From Sulfurimonas sp. (lineage in GTDB: Bacteria > Campylobacterota > Campylobacteria > Campylobacterales > Sulfurimonadaceae), in the NCBI GenBank assembly GCA_030247515.1, contig JAOTSA010000006.1:1-44202 (forward strand): a stretch of DNA of 44,202 bases, in the 5' to 3' direction. The translations under genes and the position numbers were made by a program. The notes under the pieces are model-generated. The model saw only the letters and a program-made list of their open reading frames with translations, made no database searches and was not told the DNA's origin. Below, one piece after another: positions 1,639-34,004 of this stretch; the stretch's first letter is position 1; each line of letters opens with the position of its first letter.

Positions 1639-1714
1639 GGAAGTGAGGCTTTAGCCTCGCCTAGTAAGGGTACATGGCATATAGAGTTTTGAGCGGGGCT
1701 AAAGCCCCACTTCC
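1639..1714. repeat. REP-like palindromic repeat pair (REPIN-like), family A
   Basis: Two 22-bp palindromic units face each other: 1639-1660 (reads GGAAGTGAGGCTTTAGCC...) and 1693-1714 (reads GCGGGGCTAAAGCCCCACTT...). Each unit has a GGAAGTG head and an internal stem (GAGGCT/AGCCTC or GGGGCT/AGCCCC). They are separated by 32 bases. The same unit recurs at 30767-30830 and inside priA (32380-32476). The arrangement is that of a REP doublet. No RAYT-type transposase lies in the window. Confidence 0.8.
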
Positions 1715-30766: not shown

Positions 30767-30830
30767 GGAAGTGGGGCTTTAGCCCCGCAAAAAGTTTCAT
30801 TCACATAAGCGAGGCTGAAGCCTCACTTCC
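30767..30830. repeat. REP-like palindromic repeat pair (REPIN-like), family A
   Basis: Inverted units at 30767-30788 (GGAAGTGGGGCTTTAGCC...) and 30809-30830 (GCGAGGCTGAAGCCTCACTT...) are separated by 20 bases, in the convergent gap between csd3 and priA. They are the same unit as at 1639-1714 and inside priA. A pair of hairpins here might also end both transcripts. Confidence 0.8.
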
Positions 30831-30853: not shown

Positions 30854-32758
30854 CTAACCAAACTCCACAGGATCCATATCTATCTCGGCAAGAGCATTTT
30901 TACACGTACTAACCGCTTTGATGATATCCGTACTCTTCTCTGAACGCAAAAGTATCTCAAAGCGGTACTTATCCGCCACCCTCTCGATGCCACACTTCCC
31001 AAAACCGACCATTTCTACACTTGCAAACGTACGTAAACGCTCCACCATCTCTAACATCGCATCTTGCGCCCTCACTCCGTTTTTGTGTGAAAATAGAACT
31101 CTGCAAAGTTTTTTATAAGGCGGATAAAGCTCTTTGCGGTACTCTTTTTCATCCTCTAAAAATGCCTCATAATTCTCTACAAAAACTTTAAAAAACTCCT
31201 CATTAAAGCTCTGAACAAGCACTTTGGCACTCTCTTTGCGCCCGCTTCGCCCCGCTACTTGTATAAGTGTGGAAAGTGCTTTTTCTCTCGCTCTGTAGTC
31301 GCTCATGCCCAGCATGTTGTCCATCCCCAAAACCACTGCCAACGCCACACCATGGTAGTCATGTCCCTTACTAAGCATCTGCGTTCCGATAAGTATGTCT
31401 ATCTCTTTGGCATTAAACCGCTCCAACATCTGCTCAAGCTTTTTTGCCGTCGTGATGGTATCTCTGTCAAACTGTTCTACTCTGGCTTCACTTATCTGCT
31501 CTCGCACCTCTTTAAGTGCCTCCGCTGTTCCAAGCCTTGAACTTACCAAATGCCCACTCCCGCACTCTGAACACTTTTGCGGTATAGCTTGTGCAAAGTT
31601 GCAGTAGTGGCACTTGAGGGAGCGGGTTTTTTGATGCACGCTCATCCCAACACTGCAAAAAACACACTTGTATGTATAGCCACAATCCCCACAAATAAGA
31701 TACTTAAAGTTCGCACGAGTAGGAAGAAAAAGGATAGACTGCTCCCTTTGCTCTACACTTTTTTGCAGATAATGCACTACAAGCGGCGAGAGCCTCTCCA
31801 CACTTTGCTCATAGATAAACTCTTTTTGAGCGTTGAAGTAACCACCTTTAAGTCTAAAATATGGAAACTTAACATAGCTAGTCAAACTCGGCGTCGCACT
31901 CCCAAGTACAACAGGCACATTATGTACCTTTCCCATATAGATGGCGATGTCTCTGGCATTGTAGCGGGGACGTGAGGAGGATTTGTAGCTATCGTCATGC
32001 TCCTCATCCACCACCACAAGTCCCAAATCCGCAATCGGCAAAAAGAGGGCTGAGCGTGGACCTGCTACTATCATCGCACTTCCATCATGGATAGACGCAA
32101 GTGCTTTTTTCTTTTGAGCAGGTGTGAGTTTAGAGTGCCAAAAAACAACACTCTCGCCGAAATGAAGCTTCAGCCGCTTACTCATCTGAGGTGTCAGCGA
32201 GATTTCAGGCATAAGAAAGATAGAACGCTTTTTTTGCAAAAGCATCTCTTCAAAGTAACGCATATAAATCTCTGTTTTACCGCTTCCTGTGTCGCCAAAA
32301 AGCAGAGAGACGGAGTGCTTTTTTAGAAATTCTAGTGCTTCATTTTGTTTTTCAGAGAGAGTGATACTAGCAAAAGAGGGCGAGGCTGAAGCCTCACTTC
32401 CAAAGTCTGCCGCATTAACAAGGAAGTGGGACTTTAGTCCCGCATCAAAAGAGGGTGAGGCTGAAGCTTCACTTCCAAAAGGGGTCATAACCCCAAGTGA
32501 TTCGCCAAGTGAGCAAAAGTAGTAAGAAGCCATAAAAGTTGCGATTTCTAGTTGCTTTGGCGAATAGCAAAAAGTGCTTGTCTCTAAAATCTCCAAACAC
32601 TCAAAAGACGGCTCATCACACCCCCCAACAACCACACCCTCAACCTCTTTACCCCGCACAAGAACGGTTACTTTTGCGCCAAGAGAGATGGTATGCTGAC
32701 TTTTATAGGTTAATGGTTCTAGCGGGGAGTTAAGAAGTGCGATGTTATAGTAGTTCAC
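30854..32758 (-). CDS. priA: Primosomal replication restart helicase PriA
   Basis: 634 residues from a GTG at 32758. Walker A LLFGDTGSGKTEIY near residue 153, VVVDEEHDDSYKSS, and the zinc-binding cluster CGDCGYTYKCVFC...CHYCNFAQAIPQKCSECG are diagnostic. PriA reloads DnaB at collapsed forks. Residues ~94-130, between the N-terminal domain and the helicase domain (ITLSEKQ), are encoded by three family-A palindromic repeats. They contain FGSEASASPSF twice (94-104 and 119-129). The reading frame is intact through the insertion, which lies in a natural linker. No Shine-Dalgarno is evident. Confidence 0.93.
   Translation of the reverse strand: MNYYNIALLNSPLEPLTYKSQHTISLGAKVTVLVRGKEVEGVVVGGCDEPSFECLEILETSTFCYSPKQLEIATFMASYYFCSLGESLGVMTPFGSEASASPSFDAGLKSHFLVNAADFGSEASASPSFASITLSEKQNEALEFLKKHSVSLLFGDTGSGKTEIYMRYFEEMLLQKKRSIFLMPEISLTPQMSKRLKLHFGESVVFWHSKLTPAQKKKALASIHDGSAMIVAGPRSALFLPIADLGLVVVDEEHDDSYKSSSRPRYNARDIAIYMGKVHNVPVVLGSATPSLTSYVKFPYFRLKGGYFNAQKEFIYEQSVERLSPLVVHYLQKSVEQREQSILFLPTRANFKYLICGDCGYTYKCVFCSVGMSVHQKTRSLKCHYCNFAQAIPQKCSECGSGHLVSSRLGTAEALKEVREQISEARVEQFDRDTITTAKKLEQMLERFNAKEIDILIGTQMLSKGHDYHGVALAVVLGMDNMLGMSDYRAREKALSTLIQVAGRSGRKESAKVLVQSFNEEFFKVFVENYEAFLEDEKEYRKELYPPYKKLCRVLFSHKNGVRAQDAMLEMVERLRTFASVEMVGFGKCGIERVADKYRFEILLRSEKSTDIIKAVSTCKNALAEIDMDPVEFG
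32380..32476. repeat. Three family-A palindromic repeats inside priA
   Basis: Units at 32380-32401, 32422-32443 and 32455-32476, in alternating orientation. The first and third, with flanks, form a 35-bp near-direct repeat spaced 75 bp (25 codons). They differ at two positions, both synonymous in priA (GAG/GAA, TCG/TCA). The middle unit has a compensated stem change (GGGACT/AGTCCC instead of GGGGCT/AGCCCC). Confidence 0.85.
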
Positions 32759-33384: not shown

Positions 33385-33414
33385 CTCGCTCCCATGCTCT
33401 TGCGTGGGAACGAG
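33385..33414. repeat. Palindromic repeat, family B
   Basis: CTCGCTCCCATGC-TCTT-GCGTGGGAACGAG: a 13-bp stem with one mismatch and one G-T. It resembles the widespread CGTTCCCACGC...GCGTGGGAACG palindromes of many bacteria. It sits between the antitoxin start and the upstream pseudopilin gene. Confidence 0.65.
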
Positions 33415-33975: not shown

Positions 33976-34004
33976 GCATTCCACCTCGGGAGAGGTGGAA
34001 CGAG
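33976..34004. repeat. Palindromic repeat, family B (variant)
   Basis: GCATTCCACCTC-GGGA-GAGGTGGAACGAG: a perfect 9-bp stem (TTCCACCTC/GAGGTGGAA). The outer bases GCATTCC...GGAACGAG match the family-B type at 33385. It lies between the two pseudopilin genes. Confidence 0.6.

Follow-up and report, generated by a model that had tools for sequence, protein, structure and literature searches.

The stretch of DNA analysed here (the window) comprises 44,202 nucleotides and corresponds to contig C49 of the draft Sulfurimonas genome G000. It carries an intact priA gene on the reverse strand (30854..32758) encoding the 634-aa primosomal protein N', the replication restart helicase. Apart from a winged-helix domain, all PriA domains (3'DNA-binding domain, DEAD, Helicase_C, Zn ribbon and PriA_C) are matched in Pfam despite an insert between the first two of them. 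On the same strand, the 3'DNA-binding domain (PF17764, residues 14-93) is encoded at 32480..32719, the DEAD helicase domain (PF00270, residues 137-293) at 31880..32350, and the intervening linker (residues 94-129) at 32372..32479 is REP-derived.

The array within priA, at 32371-32480, consists of three REP-like units in the orientation - + - and codes for residues ~94-130, in agreement with an earlier note on this DNA that had described three such units inserted in frame; the insertion is thus compatible with translation. A 34-nt direct repeat is present at 32371-32404 and 32446-32479 (75 bp start to start, 94% identical). Both copies encode the peptide FGSEASASPSF (residues 94-104 and 119-129) and differ at two sites, each a third codon position, as had also been noted. 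All three units were identified by pattern match and belong to a family designated here family A, fitting GGAAGTG-NNN-CT-NN-AG-NNN-CGC, one of them with one mismatch. When each 22-nt unit was folded singly as RNA, the first unit in the priA sense, GGAAGTGAAGCTTCAGCCTCAC (32455..32476, reverse strand), showed a partly decayed stem (hairpin z -0.6), the inverted unit between the direct copies, GGAAGTGGGACTTTAGTCCCGC (32422..32443, forward strand), formed a clear hairpin (z -4.1 on its own strand and -2.6 on the priA strand), and the unit of the second direct copy, GGAAGTGAGGCTTCAGCCTCGC (32380..32401, reverse strand), formed a moderate hairpin (z -2.4). The units therefore have the 20-40 bp stem-loop size of REPs/BIMEs, one of the three being decayed. 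Since the hairpin z of a whole linker is a weak detector for multi-unit arrays (-1.1 for the window linker), family patterns and stem length were also applied. A known structured RNA was rejected, the Rfam match being sub-threshold (20.9 bits vs a gathering score of 51).

Family A is not confined to priA. At up to three mismatches, GGAAGTGNNNCTNNAGNNNCGC has 10 matches in the window compared with 1.9 by chance, and seven of the 10 have 0-1 mismatch. A repeat search of the window genome with family patterns and selected stretches revealed 22 copies of family A (GGAA + hairpin + CGC), 18 of them exact, and none of the reversed control pattern. Only four of 21 distinct copies lie within ORFs and the remainder are intergenic, a dispersal like that of REPs. 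Inverted pairs, the arrangement seen in BIMEs, occur on contigs 49 (three places), 83, 138 and 178, and because many copies pair head-to-head elsewhere, the priA array is considered REP/BIME-like. One strong BIME-like inverted pair at 30767..30830 (units at 30767 and 30809; z -6.0) lies 23 bp 3' of the priA stop codon and may influence the priA message at its 3' end; another is located at 1639..1714 (units at 1639 and 1693). In addition, hairpins resembling family B (described below) and a family H are found at 33385-33414 and 33977-34002, near PIN-domain and pilin-like genes upstream of priA. The Y1 (HUH) REP-associated transposase (PF01797) had no match in the 99.98% complete window genome, with control genomes positive, so that a RAYT was rejected as the mobiliser.

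An AlphaFold2 prediction from 18 sequences (mean pLDDT 82.7) places residues 98-128 in disorder (pLDDT < 50) between well-folded domains on either side, supporting the earlier proposal that the peptide is tolerated as a linker. From helix 96-99 to helix 136-147 the model contains no folded domain, and hence nothing like the winged-helix domain of PriA; in relatives with an unfilled site this stretch comprises only about 16-21 aa. The top sequence match, and second-best fold match, is PDB 6DCR, E. coli PriA minus its winged-helix domain. Because of the disordered segment and this match, the insert is placed by the model at the site of the winged-helix domain of E. coli/Klebsiella PriA, a domain that the window PriA is predicted to lack. 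In both the 6DCR protein and the window PriA the 3'DNA-binding domain is joined to the helicase core without a winged helix; however, the deletion in 6DCR is engineered, whereas the Campylobacterota PriA is naturally short, with a predicted disordered linker at that place.

The linker of the related UBA6792 (locus L085) is homologous to that of the window; its three direct units keep the same 75-bp register and are accompanied by two inverted ones, compared with two and one, respectively, in the window. The unequal copy number indicates tandem duplication or loss after insertion, and alignment of the two linkers makes the previously suggested duplication following insertion likely. Only the N-terminal part of priA and the linker were compared, because an N-gap follows the linker in the UBA6792 scaffold. 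UBA6792 was dropped as a 94% relative on account of this gap and of nucleotide identities of 84% vs 90% on its two sides. N-gaps also adjoin the linker in priA of G064 and G096. Two different priA N-terminal halves, L085 (family A array) and L103 (family B), are present in the UBA6792 bin, which probably mixes strains. Among the UBA6792 direct copies, one pair differs synonymously and the two other pairs each at two amino acids, and these copies are 2-3 amino acids apart from those of the window; in these alignments, nothing points to conservation of the peptide. The synonymous-only difference between the window copies, to which the earlier note gave weight, is real but uninformative because it involves just two sites, with a 1/9 chance of falling at third positions if each position is equally probable. 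Purifying selection on that basis was rejected, given this chance and the non-synonymous differences in two of the three UBA6792 unit pairs.

Across the genus, 114 priA linkers from 112 Sulfurimonas genomes were surveyed. Linker length ranges from 17 to 102 aa, being mostly 17-24 aa without an insert and up to 102 aa with one. With thresholds calibrated on shuffled linkers, 54 of the 114 linkers, representing 52 of the 112 genomes (about 46%), were scored as carrying inserts; family A status was set at two mismatches, as the null rate at three mismatches is 3% per linker. The inserts, all in frame and at one site, belong to at least five distinguishable dispersed families. Family A carries a GGAN tag plus hairpin (GGAA in the window genome, GGAT or GGAG in relatives), family B reads TTCCCA..TGGGAACGA and encodes SHAEHGN, family C reads CGTCATYCYRARCTTGAYTYRGRATC and encodes RHSKLDLES or ILNQVQDD, family D reads GTCATTGCGAGCGAAGCG and encodes VIASEARQS, and family E reads CCAGRYTTCARYCTGGGCT and encodes TQVSTWA. 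Other hairpin inserts beyond families A-E include GTTCCACCTC..GAGGTGGAAC and more. Outgroup linkers are mostly 16-20 aa, and such inserts were not seen in the parsed ones, a reading that leaves aside the longer L382. The priA gene of G021 (L110 / L089), with a family B linker, shows an apparent frameshift at a T run just after the linker, outside the element.

In most tested cases the family residing in priA is also a dispersed repeat of the same genome, with reversed controls at 0 throughout. Copy numbers are 113 (G062), 58 (G075) and 51 (G078) for family C, 31 (G004) for family D and 31 (G026) for the GGAT form of family A. Two families share one linker in G062 and G104 (C + D) and in G112 and G103 (B + D), tandem expansions occur in the linkers of G016, G075 and G125, and elements that look decayed by eye occur in those of G063, G066, G122 and G138. 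On a tree of the remaining PriA sequence, parsimony requires at least 25 presence/absence changes or at least 38 family changes, in which gain and loss are not distinguishable. The close sisters G032 and G078 differ in that the site is empty in the former and occupied in the latter. The sisters G106 and G072 differ by 24 codons, in frame and precisely at an inverted element pair, and the short allele keeps GGATGTG; from the alignment, this looks like a partial deletion. Relatives lacking the residues of the window array have unrelated inserts or a short linker, and the residues were not found to be shared from unrelated DNA. The segment is therefore not ancestral, in agreement with the earlier view of it as an insertion. 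Beyond the scope of the earlier note, several repeat families unrelated to one another are concentrated in the priA linker throughout the genus, making it a hotspot.

The concentration of repeats at this site is pronounced. Over the priA loci compared, families A-E were scored 65 times within linkers totalling 9.8 kb and 17 times in flanking DNA of 126 kb, but not once in the other 198 kb of priA. The density in the linker is ~50-fold that of the flanks, most of which is coding sequence. As the family patterns originated from priA linkers, these raw counts are biased, and they were therefore checked with genomes outside the pattern definition and with a complete-genome census of G078. The genomes G060-G082, not used for the patterns, contain 409 copies. 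With these spread across 150-400 kb of intergenic DNA, a 54-bp site should hold 0.06-0.15 copies, yet exact matches were found in five linkers (G062, G065, G072, G075 and G078). Among the 51 family C copies in the complete genome G078, 48 are intergenic, two lie in priA and one in an epimerase gene. In the window genome, the only long genes hit by 21 family A and 31 family C copies are priA (three) and a gene for an MmeI/Eco57I-like restriction enzyme (one).

Within priA, each family and orientation is also read almost always in one frame, with 10/10 copies for A+, 11/11 for B, 10/10 for C+ and 8/8 for E. Alternative frames are often open, and the frame used is not always the most hydrophilic. 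A single frame per family may reflect peptide selection, phase-specific entry or shared ancestry of some inserts, in which case the tree would overstate the number of independent insertions.

Taken together, the most probable explanation, in which we have reasonable confidence, is that the linker is a dispensable disordered segment that recurrently captures resident REPs, amplifies them in tandem and lets them decay. In Sulfurimonas PriA, a short disordered linker would join the 3'DNA-binding domain to the helicase core and would act as a tolerant landing pad, because its length and sequence are nearly unconstrained. The REP-type palindromes resident in each genome would enter it by some transfer process, and only in-frame, stop-free versions would survive, such an insert being presumably near-neutral for PriA. 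Direct copies could then grow or shrink as tandem units via slippage or recombination, a putative origin of the 75-bp repeat, and old elements would decay to ordinary-looking linker as new ones arrive; the three-unit GGAA-tagged array would be the current occupant in the window. The linker density nevertheless suggests something in excess of simple tolerance, unless only a small share of intergenic DNA is really unconstrained. The single frame per family and the lack of a match to a REP-associated transposase in the window genome also count against this explanation. A reading beyond tolerance, in which palindromic elements truly target the priA linker or are selected there and REP mobility is linked to a replication-restart gene, appears doubtful.

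One alternative assumes that each family entered priA once or a few times long ago, and that the present patchwork arose through later losses, gene conversion involving dispersed copies and horizontal transfer of priA alleles. In line with such a history, members of one family share a frame and lie at similar positions, the G000 and UBA6792 linkers appear homologous, and UBA6792 has two different priA N-termini. However, the families are scattered over clades and match the repeats of the local genome, and we judge this history rather unlikely.

Alternatively, REP mobilisation, by an enzyme or by fork-associated single-strand transfer, could prefer the DNA of the priA linker or of its surroundings. 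A preferred entry point would account for the ~50-fold density over flanks and the one frame per family, and it would fit elements that, by eye, begin in many species ~0-5 codons from a conserved [PA][FY] motif, as well as extra copies that cluster close to priA in G000 and G078. However, families that are unrelated and differ in their ends (GGAN, CGTC, TTCCCA and CCAG) would all need one target, and alignments of sister pairs revealed neither a common target sequence nor a target duplication, which makes a preferred entry point unlikely.

Still less probable is that the inserts are adaptive, the altered linker changing PriA activity (fork loading, or the mutation or recombination rate). It is consistent with this idea that priA is one of just two genes with a family C copy in G078 and one of two long genes hit among the 52 sampled family A or C copies in G000, and that a bias to replication/repair genes is also described by Di Nocera et al. 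2013 (PMC3733652). Nonetheless, sequence, length and family all vary freely, presence differs between close sisters such as G032 and G078, and sugar epimerases and restriction enzymes are also carriers. Finally, although the units are short when taken alone, an ordinary protein sequence that is palindromic by coincidence has practically no chance of being the explanation and is refuted by the dispersed intergenic copies, the absence of reversed-pattern matches genome-wide and the sister species without the insert.

The recurrent-capture reading can be set beside known systems. Intragenic REPs are already known, as they were described, with a bias to replication/repair genes, by Di Nocera et al. 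2013, in which one shared REP site (recB of two Xanthomonas species) is given, effects of REPs in UvrABC, RecBCD and polymerase genes are speculated upon, and CGTC repeats are said to be generally without associated transposase genes; priA does not occur in its main text. Like the REPs/BIMEs of the GTAG and CGTC superfamilies portrayed there, the window repeats are 20-40 bp stem-loops that carry a short unpaired tag at the 5' end. They are dispersed, lie mainly between genes and form head-to-head pairs, and the in-frame genic copies share the leaning towards replication/repair genes. In contrast to the GTAG or CGTC tags of these superfamilies, the family A tag is GGAA, GGAT or GGAG; family C starts with CGTC, and family D units (TCATTGCGAG...) often follow CG, giving CGTC. 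The likeness to Rickettsia palindromic elements with a different unit, proposed earlier, is supported as an analogy: both are in-frame palindromes in protein genes and apparently tolerated. Rickettsia elements, however, hit many genes, whereas here one site of one gene dominates, and family A, set against them by description, is without the CGTC tag that PMC3733652 gives for RPE-4 and RPE-6. No open paper joining a Rickettsia palindromic element with PriA was found in the literature. Compared with the one shared site given in the 2013 study, here five or more families return to a single site across the genus, and a multi-family, single-site hotspot in priA of this extent appears undescribed in the searchable literature.

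The bias of REPs to replication/repair genes has been noted since 2013 without a test. With more than 100 species in which a single core-gene site is variously empty, filled, expanded or decayed, neutral tolerance, targeting and adaptation become separable. About half of the Sulfurimonas species sampled show one spot in a core gene serving as a recurrent landing pad for repeat DNA, and selfish repeat DNA is able to provide a protein linker, time after time, with the greater part of its sequence.

Across the loci compared, other carriers are nucleotide-sugar epimerases/dehydratases, a type I restriction HsdR and a DUF4214 protein. Family A is in frame in two restriction-modification genes, L070 (G000, MmeI/Eco57I-like) and L132 (G021, HsdR). 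In-frame REP units were also observed in epimerase/dehydratase genes of three genomes, L128 (G072), L134 (G064) and L333 (G078), which encode RmlD, an RmlB-like protein and another epimerase. Nucleotide-sugar epimerases/dehydratases thus form a second recurrent gene class, with seven units at two sites in RmlD.
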